Of a DNA stretch of 64,000 nt, positions 24,165 through 32,446 are shown piece after piece. The DNA lies in NCBI RefSeq assembly GCF_005876985.1, contig NZ_VAHD01000001.1:496001-560000 (forward strand), read 5' to 3'. The stretch's first letter is position 1, and every line of letters starts with the position of its first letter. The stretch is from Rhodoferax bucti. Lineage in GTDB: Bacteria > Pseudomonadota > Gammaproteobacteria > Burkholderiales > Burkholderiaceae_C. The position numbers were made by a program, and so were the translations under genes. The notes under the pieces are model-generated. The model ran no database searches. It was not told the origin of the DNA and was given only the letters and a program-made list of their open reading frames with translations.

Positions 24165-27100
24165 TCAGTTCTTCAGCAACATGTCCAGAATGCGCCCCGC
24201 GTGGTCGCGCGCCACGCTGCGCTCCCAGCCTGCCAGCGGCATCAGCAGCTTGCGCAGCAGGTCTTTCACATCCGGGTGCAGCTGGGGCATGTGCTTCCAG
24301 TTCGCCGCCAAGGTGCGGGCCAGCTCCGGGTCGGCAAACAGTTGCTCGGTCGCCGTCTTGGCGGTGTCAGGGTCCAGCGCCGTAGTCAGGTAGTGGTACA
24401 CGGCAGACTGCGCCGCTGTGGCAAAGCCCGTGTTGTCTTTGTCGCGAATGCGCGCCCCAAACAGATCCAACTGCTCCAAAAACTGCGCCTGGCTGATGCG
24501 GCCCGCTTTTTCTTCAGCCAACAGCTTGTCCAGCTCCTCGGCCAGCTTGTCAAAAAAGCCGGGGTCTTTGTCGCGCCCGGTGGCAATGGTGTGCTTGAGC
24601 TGGTTCTTCATCACCAGCGCTTGGCTGCCAGGGTTGGCCAGCGCCCGCAGGCGCGCCATGTCGCCGGCGTTCAGGATGGACACCTCCTTGCCCAACAAAC
24701 TGCGCGCCGGACTGGCGTCCACATACTCGTCCAACAAGCGCTGCAGTAGCACGCTCTCCAGCCGGGTAATACGCTCGCGCTGCGCGCCCTCGGGTAGCTT
24801 GTCGCGCAACATCAGGCGCACTTCAGCAAAGAGTGTGAAGTACGGCTTGAACGGCACGCCGCGCACGTCGGGCAAGATGATGTCCACACTGCGGTTGAAC
24901 TGCTTCACCAGCTCCAAAAAGTCTTCCACCGCGTCCAGCCGCGTAGCTGGGTCCAGGTGGCGCTCGGCGTCCAGCTTGTAGGCTTCGCGCTCACGCACCG
25001 GGTCGTGCTGGCGCGGCAGCAGCCGCAAGATGCGCTCCAGCGTGGCCTGCAACTTGGGCAGCTCGCTCTCCACGCTTTGCCACACCTGCTGGGGCGTCAC
25101 GTCGCCGCCATAAAGCTTCAGCGCCGCATCCAGCTCGTCCACCACACCGTGGTAGTCCACGATGTAGCCCGCATTTTTGTGCGGCGGCAGCGTGCGGTTC
25201 ACCCGCGCAATGGCTTGCAGCAGCGTGTGTTCCTTGATGGGCTTGTCCAAGTACATGGTGCCCACAATGGGCGCGTCCCAGCCGGTGAGCAGCATGTCCG
25301 ACACGATAATCAGCCCCACCGGGTTATCCGCCTGCGGGAACAGCTTGCCCACAAAGTTGGCAATCTGATCAGCAGGCATAGCCACTGGCTGCTTGCCCGC
25401 TTTGATCTCATCCCGCACACGCTCTTCAATGGTGATGACCTTTTTGACATCTACCTTGTACTGCGCCGCTTCTTCCTGCACCGACAGCCCGGTGCGCGCA
25501 GCCGTCATGCCCGCCAACGACACCACCACCCGGCTCTCAAAGGTGGGCAGGCCTTGCGCTACACGCTGCGTCATGAGCGCGTCCAGCAAGTCTTTGTAGG
25601 CCACGGCCTGGTCACGCCCGTCGCACACCAGCATGCCCTTTAGGCCCTTGGCCTGCACGTTGCTGACGAAGTGCTCCACCAAATGCGCCGCCACCTGCTC
25701 CATGCGACCACTGGCCTCGCGCCAGCGGCGCAGCAGCTCACGCTGTAAAGCGAGCTGCTTGGCTTCGGGCAGGTGAGCGAACTGGTCTTTAAAGGCCTGG
25801 TCCAGCCCCGCATCGGTCGCCAGCGCCACCCAAGCGTCGATGTATTTGATGGGCAGCGTGGCCCCATCGGCCACGGCCTCGTGCAGGCGGTATTCGTCAA
25901 TATACGCACCCCCACCAAACTCGCCCAGCGTGTGCTTGTCGTCTTGAAGCAGCGGCGTGCCGGTAAACGCAATGAACTTGGCCTGCGGCAGGCTGGCGCG
26001 CATGAATGCAGCCAAAAAGTCGTACTGGCTGCGGTGCGCCTCGTCCACCAGCACATAGAAATTGGGCTTGCTGCTCAACACGCGGAAGTGCACCTTTTCC
26101 CGCGCCAGCTCCACCCAGTGCGCAGGCTTAAGCACGCCATCGGCGTCCACCTGCCCGTGGTGCACATTGCGCTCGTGCAGCATGAAAAAGTCTTTGCCCT
26201 CGCGCACACGGCGGTGGCGCTCTTGCTGGCCAGGGTCTGCATCTTCCGCATCGGCATCTGTCGAAAGCTCCGGCTCGGCATCAGCCTTGGCAGGGTCGGC
26301 AGGCGTGTCCCCTTCCTGAAACTTCTGCACCGTGCTGGTAAACACGCTGCCATAGTCGTTGCCCAGCAGCTTCACCAGCCCGTCCACCGACACCGCCTGC
26401 ACCGCCTTGATGCCCACGGCGTGGAAGGTCTCGAAGATTTGCTTGTCCAGGTCCTTGCGGTCCGTCAGCACCAGCACCGTGGGGTTGCCCAGGCCCGTGC
26501 TGTCGGAGCGCAGCATGCGCGCCAGCAGCGCCATGGTGAGCGACTTGCCGCTGCCCTGCGTGTGCCACACCACGCCGCCCTGTGGCTGTGGGGCCGTCAG
26601 GCGCTGCACCGCCTTGCGCACCGCGCGCCACTGCTGGTAGCGCGGCAGCTTCTTCACCGTCTTGCCCTCACGCGTTTCAAACAGCACAAAGTGCGTCACC
26701 AGTTGCAAAAAGCGGCTGGGCTCCAACAGCGCCCACAGCAACTGGTCTTGTTCGGTAGGCGCTTCCCCTGACGGCAAACCTTGCAGCGCCGCCACTGTGG
26801 CCAGCTCGTCGGGCTGCAGGCGGTAGCGCGCATACGCTTCGGGCTTGTTGCCCACCGCGCCATAGCGCCCGGCGCGGGCATTGAGCGCCACACACACTTG
26901 GTTGAACACAAACTGCGGCGCAAAGCTGCGCTGGTAGCCGTCAAGTTGCGCCAGCGCCTCTTCCAGCCGGTGGTGGCTGGCCTTGCACTCGATGATGGCC
27001 AGCGGCAGCCCGTTCAAGAATACAAGCAAGTCGGGCCGAAAACCATCGCCATCCGCACTGCGGCCCACGTACTGGCTCACCACATGAAAGTCGTTGCGGC

Positions 27101-27443
27101 TGGCATCCGAAGCATCTAGAAAATGCACGCTACGCATGCGCCCCTGCGCGTCGGCCAGTTGGATGTCACTGCGGTGCAGCACCTGCTGCCAAAACGCCTG
27201 GTTGGCAGGCAGCAGGTCGGTAGCCACGCGCTTGCGCAGCTCCAGCAGCGCAGCATCCACCCCACCCGGCGCCGTGGCCAGCCAAGGGTTCAGTGCCAGC
27301 AGGCGCGGGCGCAACACGTCTTCCAGCACAGGCGCCAAATGGCGCAGGGCCACGTGGACTGCGCTGCCCGGCAGATGGGTGTAGCCCAGCGTTTGCAACC
27401 AGGCAATAGCGGGCAGTTCTACGCCCTCATGTTCTGCGCTCAT
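24165..27443 (-). CDS. hsdR: Type I restriction enzyme, R subunit
   Basis: A 1092-residue restriction and translocation subunit. The N-terminal nuclease motif is readable as FRPDLLVFLNG followed by AIIECKAS (D and ExK). The helicase part carries Walker A (TQGSGKSLTMALLARML) and the DEAD-like VDEAHRSQYDF, then motif VI-like sequence QAIARVNRT. The C-terminal part is helical, for binding the methylase core. An unusual acidic stretch (AEPELSTDADAEDADPGQQE) lies in the first motor domain. Separated from hsdS and hsdM by a three-gene cassette on the other strand. Confidence 0.95.
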   Translation of the reverse strand: MSAEHEGVELPAIAWLQTLGYTHLPGSAVHVALRHLAPVLEDVLRPRLLALNPWLATAPGGVDAALLELRKRVATDLLPANQAFWQQVLHRSDIQLADAQGRMRSVHFLDASDASRNDFHVVSQYVGRSADGDGFRPDLLVFLNGLPLAIIECKASHHRLEEALAQLDGYQRSFAPQFVFNQVCVALNARAGRYGAVGNKPEAYARYRLQPDELATVAALQGLPSGEAPTEQDQLLWALLEPSRFLQLVTHFVLFETREGKTVKKLPRYQQWRAVRKAVQRLTAPQPQGGVVWHTQGSGKSLTMALLARMLRSDSTGLGNPTVLVLTDRKDLDKQIFETFHAVGIKAVQAVSVDGLVKLLGNDYGSVFTSTVQKFQEGDTPADPAKADAEPELSTDADAEDADPGQQERHRRVREGKDFFMLHERNVHHGQVDADGVLKPAHWVELAREKVHFRVLSSKPNFYVLVDEAHRSQYDFLAAFMRASLPQAKFIAFTGTPLLQDDKHTLGEFGGGAYIDEYRLHEAVADGATLPIKYIDAWVALATDAGLDQAFKDQFAHLPEAKQLALQRELLRRWREASGRMEQVAAHLVEHFVSNVQAKGLKGMLVCDGRDQAVAYKDLLDALMTQRVAQGLPTFESRVVVSLAGMTAARTGLSVQEEAAQYKVDVKKVITIEERVRDEIKAGKQPVAMPADQIANFVGKLFPQADNPVGLIIVSDMLLTGWDAPIVGTMYLDKPIKEHTLLQAIARVNRTLPPHKNAGYIVDYHGVVDELDAALKLYGGDVTPQQVWQSVESELPKLQATLERILRLLPRQHDPVREREAYKLDAERHLDPATRLDAVEDFLELVKQFNRSVDIILPDVRGVPFKPYFTLFAEVRLMLRDKLPEGAQRERITRLESVLLQRLLDEYVDASPARSLLGKEVSILNAGDMARLRALANPGSQALVMKNQLKHTIATGRDKDPGFFDKLAEELDKLLAEEKAGRISQAQFLEQLDLFGARIRDKDNTGFATAAQSAVYHYLTTALDPDTAKTATEQLFADPELARTLAANWKHMPQLHPDVKDLLRKLLMPLAGWERSVARDHAGRILDMLLKN

Positions 27444-27574
27444 GCGTCTCCCTGTGTATCTTGAATAACCTACGTGCCGCCTCGTTCAGCAATACGCACT
27501 TTTCATGTATTTTCCGGCCAATAGCCCAGCGCCATAATCATGCTTGGTCCAGACCTTAACCCAACCGCCCTCGA

Positions 27575-28465
27575 ATGCCACATTACGCAATTGTCAGCAT
27601 CCCGCTTGAAGCGCGAGAAGACACCGAGCAGTTGGGCAGCAAGCCCAAATTCTGGGTATTGATGGATGGGCAGCGTTGGTTGTTTAAGGAGGCCCGCCCC
27701 AATACTGGGGAAGACTGGGCGGAGAAAGCTGCGGCAGAGATTGCAGGTGCTATGGGCATTAATGCAGCCAAGGTGGAGCTTGCGGAATACAACGGCAAAG
27801 TTGGCTGTATCTCCTGCAATTTCATTGACGTAGACGCTGGTGAGGCACTGGTGCACGGCAATGAAATCATGGCTTGGAAAGTCACGGGCTATGACAAGAC
27901 CAAAATTTTCAGGCAAGCAGACCACACCATCGAAAACATCCAACTAGCCATTCGCGCACTGTCAGACTTTGCCGACACAGATGTTGTGCTCACGGAATTG
28001 GCAGGCTACATAGTGCTGGACGCCTTGATTGGCAACACAGATCGCCACCATGAGAACTGGGGCTTGCGCTTGCACAGCCCTGTGGCCCACCAAACTCGCG
28101 TGCTCAGCGCCGCCCCAAGTTTTGACCATGCTTCGTCTTTGGGTAGAGAGTTGTTGGACGCGCGCAGGACAGAGCTACTCGCCAATAGACAGGTAGAGCG
28201 CTACATCAGCAAAGGGCGAGGAGGCATCTTCCGCGACGCCGAGCAAGCACATGGCGAAAACCCTCTCCGGCTGGTACAGGTAGCGGCGAGGGCGTATCCT
28301 ACGTACTTCAGACCCGCCATTGAGCGGGTGGCGGCCTTAGACCCACAAGTGCTGCATGAGATATTCGAGCGCATACCACCCGAACGCGCGGCAGAACCCG
28401 CCAAGCGGTTTGCAGAGGCCATGGCATTGAGCGCCCGCCTCACCTTGTTAGATTTGTTGAAATGA
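27575..28465 (+). CDS. HipA-like kinase-fold protein lacking the HipA N-terminal domain
   Basis: A 296-residue protein with the HipA/CtkA kinase layout: a substrate-loop-like LGSKPKFWV (residues 20-28), the lysine of strand 3 (K38 in WLFKEA), the catalytic loop GNTDRHHENWG with D156 and N161, and the metal-binding D184 in SFDHASSLG. All key residues are present, so it is probably an active Ser/Thr kinase. HipA itself has an extra N-terminal domain, missing here but recognisable in the next gene, so the two may form one split HipA-type unit. Transcribed divergently from hsdR, 11 bp before the HIRAN gene. Confidence 0.8.
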   Translation: MPHYAIVSIPLEAREDTEQLGSKPKFWVLMDGQRWLFKEARPNTGEDWAEKAAAEIAGAMGINAAKVELAEYNGKVGCISCNFIDVDAGEALVHGNEIMAWKVTGYDKTKIFRQADHTIENIQLAIRALSDFADTDVVLTELAGYIVLDALIGNTDRHHENWGLRLHSPVAHQTRVLSAAPSFDHASSLGRELLDARRTELLANRQVERYISKGRGGIFRDAEQAHGENPLRLVQVAARAYPTYFRPAIERVAALDPQVLHEIFERIPPERAAEPAKRFAEAMALSARLTLLDLLK

Positions 28466-28475
28466 GTACCCCGAC

Positions 28476-29219
28476 ATGAGTACCCTCTTCGTTGCATGGC
28501 AAGCCCCCAGCCCCACTAGGGCATGGTTTCCCATTGGCCGCTTAGATGCGTCAGTAGGCCGACACGACTTTGTATTTCAGTACACCCATGGTGCACTGCA
28601 AGCCCAAGAAAGAGCCGGATTTTCGCCCCTGCTCGCCTTTCCTGAGTTTGAGCGTCGCTACGAAGCGAGCGAGCTATTCCCGCTGTTCAAAAACCGCATT
28701 CTGGAACCCAACCGCAAAGACTTTGCGGAATACCTGAACTGGCTGGACTTGGACCCCGCTCACGCAGACCCTATTGAAATTCTCAGCCTCACGGGCGGCG
28801 AACGCCAAACCGACAGCCTGGAAGTGTTTCCGCAAGTTCGCAAGATGGCGGATGGCACCATCAGTTGCCGTTTCTTTTTACATGGCCTGCGTCATGTCTC
28901 TGACGCAGCGCGCGCCCGCGCGGATGCGCTGACGGAAGGCGAAACCCTGCAAGTCGCTATTGAAGTCAACAACCCCGCCACGGGCTACGCCGTACAACTG
29001 CAAACCGAAGACTGCCACCTGATTGGCTGGGCTCCGCGCTATTTGGTCAATGACTTGCGCGCCGCCCTGCTGGAGCACTCCACCATCACAGCGACAGTGC
29101 GCCGTATCAACCGCATGGGTGCACCGTTTGCTCGCCGCGTGCTCATTGAGCTGCAAGGGGGCGTACCGGCAGGCTTTGAGCCAATGACCTCCAAGGAATA
29201 CAGCGTCTTGCCGGTTTAG
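28476..29219 (+). CDS. HipA-N-like (HipS-like) domain fused to a HIRAN domain
   Basis: A 247-residue protein. Residues about 1-120 follow the pattern of the HipA N-terminal domain: FPIGRLDAS, an F-x-Y pair, a PLL-x-FPEF turn, SELFPLFKNRIL, then DPIEILSLTGG and a VFP end. Residues about 128-235 match a HIRAN domain, including GYAVQLQ and GWAPRYLVNDL. HIRAN binds DNA 3' ends in HLTF and occurs fused to nucleases and helicases in bacteria. I infer a regulator or sensor partner for the kinase encoded 11 bp upstream. The domain pairing is inferred from patterns, not from a profile search. Confidence 0.7.
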   Translation: MSTLFVAWQAPSPTRAWFPIGRLDASVGRHDFVFQYTHGALQAQERAGFSPLLAFPEFERRYEASELFPLFKNRILEPNRKDFAEYLNWLDLDPAHADPIEILSLTGGERQTDSLEVFPQVRKMADGTISCRFFLHGLRHVSDAARARADALTEGETLQVAIEVNNPATGYAVQLQTEDCHLIGWAPRYLVNDLRAALLEHSTITATVRRINRMGAPFARRVLIELQGGVPAGFEPMTSKEYSVLPV

Positions 29220-29242
29220 GTGCTGTTTGCAGGGGCACGTGC

Positions 29243-29446
29243 ATGAAATCAACGACATCTTTGGCATCGGAGCCTGTGCACCCCATGCCCACTACGCCAA
29301 ATGCGGCATCAGCTTCCGTACCGCTGACGAGCTCCGAAATAGAGTCGCTAAGGCAGGGCAAGAGATCCATCTCCGCCTACGTGCAAAAGGAATTCGCCAC
29401 AGCGGTGCAACCCAAGCTTGACCGGCTGAAAAAGCAGGCCGCTTAG
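29243..29446 (+). CDS. Small protein at the end of the kinase-HIRAN cassette
   Basis: A 67-residue reading frame with ATG at 29243 preceded by AGGGG at a 7-bp distance. The C-terminal half (LTSSEIESLRQGKRSISAYVQKEF) looks like two charged helices; the first part is Thr/Pro/Ser-rich. It ends overlapping the last codon of the converging hsdS gene. No helix-turn-helix is evident, so it is not an obvious HipB-type antitoxin. Spacing suggests it is the third gene of the cassette. Confidence 0.5.
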   Translation: MKSTTSLASEPVHPMPTTPNAASASVPLTSSEIESLRQGKRSISAYVQKEFATAVQPKLDRLKKQAA

Positions 29447-30786
29447 GCGGCTACAGCTTCCACCCGCACCCGCCACTCCCCGGTGAGCAGCTTTTGCATG
29501 AGGCCGCGTTTGAGGGATTGGTAGTGGGTTTGTTGGGTGGTGAGGACATTCAACTTGTTAAAAACCTCCTCACAAATGGTACTAATTTGATCTCTCTCGG
29601 CTTCCGCAGGCATTGGCACGTACACCTCTCGCAGAGACTTCAAATTAATCACCTGTTGAGCAGAACCGATCATTCCGCCAAGTAGGCACGCTCTACCTGT
29701 AGTAGATGCAAGATAGCAATGAATGAACTTGGACATTGCCAAGCTGCTCGTTCTTATCATTCCCGCTTGGCGCGCAATGTTTGCTCCAGCAAGCTCTTCT
29801 GGCACTACCGCCGTTTCCCCTGGGTAGCCGACGAGCGAGACAAGTAACTCGCCACCTTGCAGCACTGTGCGCTTGAATTGGACGGATATTTCTTGCGAAA
29901 CCGTACGCAGGTTGGCTGCAATCTTTCCGTTCTTGATGTCACCACCTCGAACAAGCGGCACGCCGCCTGCACTGACCTCTCCAGGCTGAACAACTCCATA
30001 GGTGATGTTCTCTGTGGCTAGCTCTTCAAGCTTTCGCGCTTCCCAATTCTGCGGAATTTGCCCAATTGGGCTATCTTGAAACTCGGTGTGCGGGTGCCAG
30101 CGGCCTTGGGCGTCGGGGGTGCCTGCGCCGCGGGTGAAGAGGGTTTGCATCAGGCCCTGTTTGAGGGTCTGGGTGGCGCTGATCTGGCGGGCGATCAGGT
30201 CCAGCTTGTCGTCAACGGCGGTGAGGATGGCGGCGATTTTTTGTTGTTCGGGGAAGGGTGTATGCGGCGTAGGCAGCGTGAGCAAAACATCTTTGGAAAT
30301 GTTCTTCATGCTGTTGCTCGTTCCCGTTGCACCAGCAGCAATCAAACTTTTGATGGCGGGCAATTGAAGCCAGTACGACAACCAGCGTTGCGAGTGCGGG
30401 CGATCAGAGGGAACTGTTTGCCACAGCCGATCCGGCAGGAACAGATGCGGTTGCGCTGAAGGCACATACCCGGACTCACCCACAAGTGCGGGCGTGTTCA
30501 TGCGGCTGATCACAACGCGGTCCGCGAGAACAGGCGAAGCGACGCGGTCAATATCTTCCGGAACAACGACCTTGTGCTGGTGCGCGAAGAACTTACCGCC
30601 CAATACGGCGCTGGTTTTCAAGACGCCCACCTGACCATCCAGACAGCCTGCTTCAGTCTCGTTTGCATTAACGCTCACGCCTGCTTGAAGTGCAGCAACA
30701 AAGTCCCCCAGCTTGCCAAGCGTCCACTCCACCGGAATCCACCCCACTACCGTTTCCTTGTACCCCGGCTTGCCTGCCACGCTCAC
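29443..30786 (-). CDS. hsdS: Type I restriction enzyme, specificity subunit
   Basis: A 447-residue HsdS with two target-recognition halves. Each half ends in a helical spacer with a matching sequence: FPEQQKIAAILTAVDDKLDLI near residue 185 and AERDQISTICEEVFNKLNVL near 400, each followed by QTLKQGLMQTLFT or QSLKRGLMQKLLTGEW. The start overlaps the hsdM stop (ATGA). It sets the recognition sequence for both methylation and cleavage. Confidence 0.93.
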   Translation of the reverse strand: MSVAGKPGYKETVVGWIPVEWTLGKLGDFVAALQAGVSVNANETEAGCLDGQVGVLKTSAVLGGKFFAHQHKVVVPEDIDRVASPVLADRVVISRMNTPALVGESGYVPSAQPHLFLPDRLWQTVPSDRPHSQRWLSYWLQLPAIKSLIAAGATGTSNSMKNISKDVLLTLPTPHTPFPEQQKIAAILTAVDDKLDLIARQISATQTLKQGLMQTLFTRGAGTPDAQGRWHPHTEFQDSPIGQIPQNWEARKLEELATENITYGVVQPGEVSAGGVPLVRGGDIKNGKIAANLRTVSQEISVQFKRTVLQGGELLVSLVGYPGETAVVPEELAGANIARQAGMIRTSSLAMSKFIHCYLASTTGRACLLGGMIGSAQQVINLKSLREVYVPMPAEAERDQISTICEEVFNKLNVLTTQQTHYQSLKRGLMQKLLTGEWRVRVEAVAA

Positions 30787-32399
30787 AGCCCGCCCTCCAC
30801 CAACCCCAGCTCCGCCAGATACCCATTCAGCCGCGCATCCACCGCCTTCTCTTCCTCGGCCAGTTCGCGCAGCAGCGCCAGGGTGGCGGGCACATCCACC
30901 ACGTCTTCTTTCTGGCCGTTGTCGATGTAGCGGGCGATATTGAGGTTGCCGTCGTTGGCGCGGATTTCGTCCAGGGGCACCACGCGGCAGTAGTGGGCTA
31001 CCTCGGCTTGCGCTTCAAACGCGGCGCGGTGGGTGGCGACGATGCGTTGCACATCCTCAGGCCGCAGGCTGTTTTGGGCTTTGCCCTCCGCAAAGTCGCG
31101 GCTGGCGTCGATGATGATGACGTTGCCTTGCAGGGCTTTGGGCTTTTTCTTGTTGAGGATGAGCACGCAGGCCGGAATGCCGGTGTTGTAAAACAGGGCA
31201 GACGGCAGGCCGACGATGGCCTCGATCAAATCGCCCGGCTGGTTGCCCTGCGCGGCGCTGGTGCCGAAGAGCAGGCCGTCGCGAATCTTGCCTTCCTCCC
31301 CACTGCGGAACAGCACGCCGTGCGGCAGGATGATGCCCATGCGGCCGTCGGCCTTGAGGCTGGCCAGCATGTGTTGTGCAAAGGCCAGGTCGCCATAGCC
31401 GCGCGGGGGCGTGCCGTAGAGGAAGCGGCTGTGGGGGTCGTTGATGGTTTTGTAGTTGGGGGCTTTGGGCTTTTTGCCACTGTCGGCGTTTTGCTCGGTC
31501 TCGGCCTCGATCTCCAGCGGGCTCCACCAGGCTTTGGCGCTGAAGGGTGGGTTGGCGATCACGCGGTCAAAGGTTTGCAGGTGGCCGCCGCTCAGGTGCT
31601 TGGGCTCTACCAGCGTGTCGCCGCGCTCTATCTTGGCGTGCATGTTGTGCAGGTAGAGGTTGAGCTTGGCGATGGCCCAGGTGCCCAGGTTTTTCTCCTG
31701 GCCGTAGAGCTGAACGTTGGGCTGGCCCATGACCTTGCCGTTGGGCAACTCTGCGATGTGGTGGGCGCTTTCCACCAGCATGCCGCCGCTGCCACAGGTG
31801 GGGTCGTACACGCTGTGGCCGGGGCGGGGGTCTATGAGCTGCACCACCAGTTGCACCACGGCTTTGGGGGTGTAGAACTCGCCGCCTTTTTTGCCTGCGT
31901 CGTCGGCAAATTGCTTGATGAGGTATTCGTAGGCGTCGCCCAGCATGTCGGCCTTGTAGAGGTCGGCGTTGCCCAAGCGGTATTGGTTGAAGTGGCGCAG
32001 CAGGCGCTGCAGGGTGGCGTCGCTCAATATGCGTTTGTCGCCGTACTGGGTGGCGGTGAGCACGTGTTGCAGCTCGGTGTTTTGCTCTTCGATTTTGGCA
32101 AAGGCTTGGTCCAGCGCCTCGCCTATGTTTTGGGTGCGGGCGATCAGGCTGGGCCAGCGGGCCTCGGGCGGGAACTGGCCCATGGCGTCTTGCACTTCGG
32201 TTTCGGCCTCGGCAGCGCTGAGGTGCTCGTCGGCCATCTTGGCGCGCACGCGTTCGTCAAACACGTCGTTAAAGCGCTTGAGGAAGAGCAGGCCAAAGAT
32301 GTAGTTTTTGAAGTCGCTGGAGTCGATGGAGCCGCGCAGGATGTTGGCGGACTCCCAGAGCCAGCTCTCTAGGGTGTCGAGGGTGAGTGCAGATGACAT
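30783..32399 (-). CDS. hsdM: Type I restriction enzyme, methyltransferase subunit
   Basis: A 538-residue N6-adenine DNA methyltransferase. The SAM-binding motif appears in YDPTCGSGGMLVES and the catalytic motif IV in VIANPPFSAKAW. An N-terminal helical HsdM domain (LDTLESWLWESANILRG) precedes them. I use the ATG at 32399 (MSSALTLDTLES), three codons inside the longest frame, because family members start this way; the upstream ATG at 32408 is possible. First gene of hsdM-hsdS. Confidence 0.94.
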   Translation of the reverse strand: MSSALTLDTLESWLWESANILRGSIDSSDFKNYIFGLLFLKRFNDVFDERVRAKMADEHLSAAEAETEVQDAMGQFPPEARWPSLIARTQNIGEALDQAFAKIEEQNTELQHVLTATQYGDKRILSDATLQRLLRHFNQYRLGNADLYKADMLGDAYEYLIKQFADDAGKKGGEFYTPKAVVQLVVQLIDPRPGHSVYDPTCGSGGMLVESAHHIAELPNGKVMGQPNVQLYGQEKNLGTWAIAKLNLYLHNMHAKIERGDTLVEPKHLSGGHLQTFDRVIANPPFSAKAWWSPLEIEAETEQNADSGKKPKAPNYKTINDPHSRFLYGTPPRGYGDLAFAQHMLASLKADGRMGIILPHGVLFRSGEEGKIRDGLLFGTSAAQGNQPGDLIEAIVGLPSALFYNTGIPACVLILNKKKPKALQGNVIIIDASRDFAEGKAQNSLRPEDVQRIVATHRAAFEAQAEVAHYCRVVPLDEIRANDGNLNIARYIDNGQKEDVVDVPATLALLRELAEEEKAVDARLNGYLAELGLVEGGL

Positions 32400-32446
32400 G
32401 GCGGGCATTGTGCCAGCTTGGGTACGCTGCCACGCCCCTCATTTTT

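Follow-up and report, generated by a model that had tools for sequence, protein, structure and literature searches.

The two genes that lie between hsdR and hsdS in the window, i.e. the stretch of 64,000 nucleotides from Rhodoferax bucti analyzed here, are a hipIN module, composed of the kinase HipI and its partner HipN, and correspond to the PADLOC candidate system PDC-M03, a layout that has already been described. We regard it as probable that this module is a toxin-antitoxin pair with a role in abortive infection, whose HipN component restrains the kinase through its HipS-like half and acts as a sensor through its HIRAN half. The locus comprises the following features (positions are those of the window):

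24165..27443, minus strand: hsdR, type I restriction subunit, flanking the pair and divergent from it (TIGR00348, 2.5e-123; HSDR_N, 5.6e-30)
27572..29215, plus strand: transferable unit, the stretch homologous to locus L036 (blastn, 1644 bp, 80% DNA identity)
27575..28465, plus strand: hipI, HipA-type Ser/Thr kinase of 296 aa, core kinase only, without HipA N-subdomain 1 (Pfam HipA_C, PADLOC PDC-M03A)
28476..29219, plus strand: hipN, putative antitoxin/sensor of 247 aa (PADLOC PDC-M03B)
28476..28838, plus strand: HipS-like domain of HipN, residues 1-121 (predicted fold)
28848..29201, plus strand: HIRAN domain of HipN, residues 125-242 (predicted fold)
29243..29446, plus strand: ORF of 67 aa, judged to be outside the system (lies past the homologous unit)
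29443..30786, minus strand: hsdS, specificity subunit, flanking the pair and convergent with it (Methylase_S, 9.9e-13)
30783..32408, minus strand: hsdM, methyltransferase subunit of the same locus (N6_Mtase, 7e-92; HsdM_N, 1.7e-22)

The pair is flanked by hsdS and then hsdM at one end and by hsdR at the other, a full type I restriction-modification (RM) set encoded on the minus strand. As the initial annotation had recognized, hipI and hipN lie on the opposite strand; they are in different reading frames and separated by 10 bases. Both ORFs are intact and contain all invariant catalytic residues, and a search with HipN detected a single hipN copy in this genome. The 67-residue ORF, which the initial annotation had listed after the two proteins, was rejected as a third component, because it lies outside the homologous unit and was matched only in the window's own genome when the fetched loci were searched with tblastn (E <= 1); a profile search of this ORF returned no HTH family. 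Between positions 27350 and 29600, there were no matches to a sigma-70-type promoter (1.2 expected) and two terminator-like sites, to which we gave no weight, since 2.8 are expected.

HipI was matched by Pfam HipA_C (4.4e-11) and PADLOC PDC-M03A (4e-82). A Foldseek comparison of its single-protein AlphaFold model (pLDDT 93.5) with the 'pdb' database yielded TM scores, normalized on the query, of 0.70-0.78 for CtkA, 0.58-0.66 for HipA entries, and 0.60 (8ezs) and 0.40 (8ezr) for HipT, so that HipI is, by its predicted structure, a kinase of the HipA/CtkA type. Residues K38, D149, N154, D156, N161 and D184 are identical in all 51 rows of the kinase alignment; we take K38, D156, N161 and D184 to be the catalytic residues of a HipA-type kinase. 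These data bear out the earlier description of a HipA-like kinase with D156, N161 and D184 that lacks the HipA N-terminal domain. The window kinase has a serine at position 22, which is occupied by S or T in 50 of the 51 rows and by a gap in the remaining one, and the surrounding stretch may represent the Gly-rich loop.

HipN was matched by PADLOC PDC-M03B (1e-82) over nearly its full length, while its second half gave a Pfam HIRAN match (7e-5) slightly below the curated cut-off. HIRAN was the sole Pfam match at E <= 1, with no hit to DUF3037 or to a HipA N-terminal domain, and NCBIfam contained no family scoring above cut-off for either protein; we therefore relied on profile and structure comparison instead. 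Foldseek, again with the 'pdb' database, and, for this protein only, VIA-align indicate that the HipN model (pLDDT 94.3) consists of a HipS-like fold followed by a HIRAN fold, i.e. a predicted split HipA partner fused to HIRAN. The earlier proposal of a partner with a HipA-N half and a HIRAN half thus holds at the level of predicted folds, although it finds no counterpart in a Pfam HipA N-terminal match. The aspartate of the NPxDxxA stretch has a role in the HIRAN domain of HLTF. In the corresponding stretch of HipN, it is replaced by threonine in the window protein and in 27 of 73 HipN sequences, so that binding of DNA ends by HipN is not assured. The entry titles of the solved HIRAN domains 4s0n, 4xzf and 5bnh describe them as DNA-bound, including binding to a single-stranded fragment.

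The window pair displays the traits of the hipIN modules reported by Gerdes et al. (2021; PMC8262856), namely a short HipA-type kinase core that lacks N-subdomain 1 and carries the catalytic residues, followed by a downstream protein with a HipS-like and then a HIRAN domain. As reported there, HIRAN domains bind DNA ends, HipN is the predicted antitoxin and the proposed function is abortive infection triggered by DNA ends, the same mechanism as considered here; release of the kinase by broken or foreign DNA, as put forward in the initial annotation, corresponds to this published hypothesis. HipI kinases are placed there in subclades of main clade XI. The words 'restriction' and 'hsdR' are absent from the main text of this article, so that placement in type I RM loci is undiscussed in that text. 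Compared with PDC-M03, no difference was found, the adjacent genes matching the individual PDC-M03A and PDC-M03B models near full length; the term PDC-M03 itself was not found in the literature searched. Among the top-ranked literature matches, there was no experiment on hipIN; a preprint on embedded defenses (10.1101/2024.01.29.577857) may contain one. HipBST likewise has a kinase split from the HipS fold, but it includes an HTH gene, hipB, and a separate HipS, whereas the window pair, whose neighbors are hsdR and hsdS, has no HipB and carries the HipS fold fused to HIRAN after the kinase. HipL kinases combine the same kinase, HipS-like and HIRAN domains in one chain rather than two genes (PMC8262856). 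HipAD (also DS-6 or PDC-M66) is another two-gene module with a HipA kinase, for which defense and toxin-antitoxin behavior are reported from experiments, with defense requiring the kinase and deletion of the DUF3037 partner being toxic (PMC13092281, PMC12548924); its partner is a DUF3037/DUF1829 protein and not a HipS-HIRAN protein. HipA-HIRAN pairs have moreover been reported to adjoin diDNase genes and were called predicted phage defense (PMC11706625). The initial annotation, which knew of no described system with this layout, is thus answered by hipIN and PDC-M03, and there are also precedents for the position: the interval between hsdS and hsdR holds the toxin-antitoxin genes DarTG2 in Escherichia coli (PMC12255303), and the two-gene defense system TgvAB is reported within a type I RM cluster (PMC11411939), the proteins being unrelated to HipI and HipN in both cases.

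The dependence of the kinase on HipN was assessed with profiles of both proteins in 243 genomes of the order to which a Nostoc genome belongs (G776, source of locus L090), and the counts refer to the candidates scored, a limited number per genome in the first pass. Main-family HipN (225 bits or more) was matched 66 times, with 61 matches being intact (at least 225 of 249 positions covered and free of internal stops), and main-family kinases (200 bits or more) 39 times, with 29 being intact (at least 270 of 299 positions covered and free of stops). An intact HipN gene was located beside every one of the 29 intact kinases (within 1.5 kb, same strand). Conversely, once two intact HipN genes at contig ends (one of them G892:C248) were set aside, 30 of the remaining 59 had no intact kinase. 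Seven of these 30 adjoin a broken or partial kinase match, and re-reading the DNA around the other 23 revealed no intact kinase, with a kinase fragment just upstream in 12 cases (E <= 0.01, two very weak) and nothing in 11. None of the five non-intact main-family HipN genes has an intact kinase beside it; one of them (G950:C6, with one stop) adjoins a kinase match of 258 positions that has no stop and falls just below the cut-off, its end running on in a second match with stops. Eighteen weaker intact kinase matches (112-186 bits) did not enter the counts; nine have a HipN-like match beside them and nine do not, and we take the latter, without proof, to be other HipA families. Since the genomes surveyed are related, no probability is attached to the asymmetry. 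It is nevertheless the pattern expected if HipN is an antitoxin and thus suggests, at the sequence level, that HipN restrains HipI, so that this part of the earlier hypothesis is favored by the pattern of loss.

The 80 genome loci that we fetched (the best 80 of 116 confirmed ones, chosen by HipN) agree with this picture: among the 79 that were classed (all except L101), the kinase is full-length in 50, fragmentary in 20, absent in 6 and at a contig edge in 3. The fragmentary class wrongly includes L051, which has a full-length kinase, an error due to an overlong HipN ORF call. In the closest relative of the window pair, L036, HipN is intact and the kinase contains a stop. In the window's own order (399 genomes), a kinase match lies directly upstream of hipN in all six full-length relatives, being partial in L007 and L008. 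Because about half of the HipN genes surveyed have no intact kinase, HipN may either be decaying or serve an independent purpose; a lone HipN may, for instance, guard against foreign HipI. Eleven loci (L197, L198, L200, L202-L205, L210, L214, L215 and L217) contain an intact HipN gene with no trace of a kinase in about 2 kb upstream, a region that in L214 and L217 includes a weak second HIRAN match. The cyanobacterial order also contains a distant family whose HipN-like gene comes before the kinase (G860:C176, G892:C489, G908:C119, G971:C363 and others), with tandem copies in G860. In the 399-genome survey, 118 of the 125 positive genomes matched the HIRAN half only; these matches represent one or more separate HIRAN-bearing families and were excluded from the pair counts.

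How the pair came to lie in the hsd locus is best explained, judging from sequence comparison, by its arrival as a two-gene cassette in an accessory-gene slot between hsdS and hsdR. HipN and the kinase of L036 are 93% and 82% identical to those of the window, and a blastn comparison of positions 26900-30000 with this locus produced one match, from 27572 to 29215, and none in the flanks. No hsd match was found within 9 kb upstream and 1 kb downstream of the L036 pair, and its annotated genes (aroA, hisD and one of the cobW type) are 4-8 kb away. The GC content of the unit is 0.56-0.58, as against 0.63-0.64 for hsdM and hsdR; that of hsdS is also 0.56. A search of 299 family genomes identified a sister hsdR, 77-78% identical (75-76% by tblastn), in five genomes besides the window's own. 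The five sister operons (L190-L194) also carry hsdM, hsdS and a ygjP-like gene, yet none of them contains hipIN, so that the pair is, by this comparison, not an obligate part of the type I RM system. Instead, the slot holds one gene in four of the five operons, whose product of ~300-320 aa (68-76% alike between operons) gave an OST-HTH match (3.4e-9) and no PADLOC match at 1e-5 in the one protein tested. This OST-HTH/LOTUS protein carries an RNELVHH stretch, and its gene could be an undescribed embedded defense gene. In L194, the first 36 residues of the OST-HTH gene product remain (78%), followed by ORFs that read, by eye, as transposases and interrupt the slot (L194:7370-9974). A remnant of the OST-HTH gene was also considered for the window slot, and none was found.

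Beyond the window, proximity to type I RM genes recurs. Ten of the 80 loci (L046, L048, L049, L050, L052, L055, L060, L062, L064 and L106) have an hsdR ORF no more than 1 kb from HipN, compared with 0.14 expected when every HSDR_N match of the 80 genomes (110 + 102) is considered. No hsdR ORF was found that close in the other 70, although 15 of the 80 contigs end no more than 1 kb beyond HipN or 2 kb ahead of it; in L051, hsdM and hsdS lie upstream and the contig ends. In eight of the ten loci, hsdS and hsdR enclose HipN on the same strand, with an intact kinase in five (L046, L049, L050, L052 and L060), whereas HipN comes after hsdR in L064. In L046, L048, L049, L050, L052, L060 and L106, hipN and hsdR are consecutive on one strand, the longest ORFs being 0-6 bases apart. 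The HsdR proteins of the nested loci are 28-51% alike between groups, that of the window being 28-34% alike to all others. On a HipN tree of 95 rows, the nested label (12 rows, including the window and L051) requires 6 changes, compared with a mean of 11.5 after shuffling, and at least five changes are forced by supported branches, without distinction between gain and loss. A single origin of the nesting is therefore disfavored. The nest comprising L046 and Nitrospirota forms a supported clade (7/7 rows), where the divergence of HsdR parallels that of HipN. Taken together, the hsdR counts and the tree indicate that nesting recurs and persists in one lineage, with the window as a separate case of opposite orientation. 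The contexts of homologous pairs, for which a neighborhood survey had been proposed, are thus not random, but exclusive tracking with hsdRMS is rejected. Among the loci whose neighbors were inspected, others feature type III mod-res genes directly upstream of the pair (L038, L045), adjoining Hma genes on a plasmid (L033), a gene resembling GmrSD (L046), a methylase-specificity fusion gene on the other strand (L054), a transposase-type gene (L037) or ordinary neighbors, such as mutS (L041), PHB depolymerase and cytochrome bd genes (L040) and guaA (L079).

Related pairs also reside in prophages. The 48 viral loci fetched represent 24 distinct HipN proteins, and in 47 of them a single ORF covers 240 or more of the 299 kinase positions. 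With gene clusters named from L121, 26 of the 48 have a replication gene A cluster upstream and a portal gene within two ORFs downstream, and in 32 of the 48 the portal gene is the next ORF. The former 26 pairs occupy the gpA-gpQ interval of P2-like phages, an anti-phage hotspot according to PMC9122126, whose available text mentions neither HipA nor HIRAN. In the phage records L032 and L035, the pair adjoins an integrase gene. Two viral contigs (L118, L158) carry a DNA methyltransferase gene downstream of hipN (PHROG 67/6952).

In this reading, HipI would be a short HipA-type kinase, harmful to the cell when free. HipN would bind it through the HipS-like half, much as HipT is held by HipS, and the HIRAN half would most likely sense DNA ends or phage replication intermediates, upon which HipN would release HipI. 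The kinase could then phosphorylate a housekeeping target, which is a tRNA synthetase for HipA and HipT, such that the infected cell would stop growing. We infer toxicity, physical binding, trigger, target and phage defense, with HipAD as the nearest experimental analog. The toxin-antitoxin/defense reading draws on the PADLOC matches, the folds, the loss pattern, the defense-type contexts and the HipAD precedent; against it stand the nine weaker kinases (of 18) without a HipN-like neighbor, the threonine in NPxDxxA, the ordinary contexts and the frequency of HipN without a kinase.

The one-sided loss pattern would be expected of any toxin-antitoxin pair, so that hipIN may also be an ordinary selfish or stabilizing module, in which HipN neutralizes HipI, its loss being lethal, HIRAN serves autoregulatory DNA binding and whose position stabilizes RM loci or prophages without any phage sensing. 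Its presence on a plasmid (L033), in prophages (L032, L035 and the viral loci) and in hsd loci, all elements able to gain from addiction, fits this idea, which we nonetheless consider unlikely, because HIRAN is reported to bind DNA ends and not operators (PMC8262856), in line with the DNA-bound HIRAN entries, and because the common loss of the kinase from beside a retained HipN shows that the pair does not firmly hold its place. The tight hipN-hsdR arrangement in seven loci and the co-divergence of HsdR and HipN in the L046-Nitrospirota nest could instead point to a functional extension of the window's type I RM system, with HipN watching the ends made by HsdR and activating the kinase in response to ongoing or blocked restriction. 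This is very improbable, given the 70 of 80 loci with no hsdR ORF within 1 kb (contig ends near HipN in 15 of the 80), the inverted pair of the window, its closest relatives outside hsd loci and the five sister operons without hipIN; a back-up to restriction, as originally suggested, is thus a weak reason for the pairing. Broken kinases are frequent among relatives, including the nearest one, and could suggest that the insertion is neutral or decaying and plays no role in the window's genome at present, yet the two intact ORFs with all their invariant catalytic residues make this extremely improbable.

Our analysis establishes what the pair is, how its proteins are predicted to fold, its extent as a two-gene unit, the one-sided link between kinase and HipN, the repeated RM nesting and the prophage-hotspot sites; new are the asymmetry, the recurrence of nesting, the unit, the sister-slot contents and the pairs in the P2 hotspot. 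While hipIN has been a predicted toxin-antitoxin/defense candidate since 2021, the contrast between 29/29 and 30/59 provides genomic evidence as to which gene depends on which. As seen in the sister operons, the interval between hsdS and hsdR serves as an exchangeable cargo slot, a finding that aids the hunt for other hidden defense genes. It is tempting, if very improbable, to speculate that in the lineage with the order hsdM-hsdS-hipI-hipN-hsdR on a single strand, where hipN abuts hsdR, and by extension in the window, HipN gauges restriction by reading ends from HsdR cuts or phage-blocked repair, turning failing restriction into kinase-mediated growth arrest. If so, type I RM systems would carry their own second line of abortive infection.
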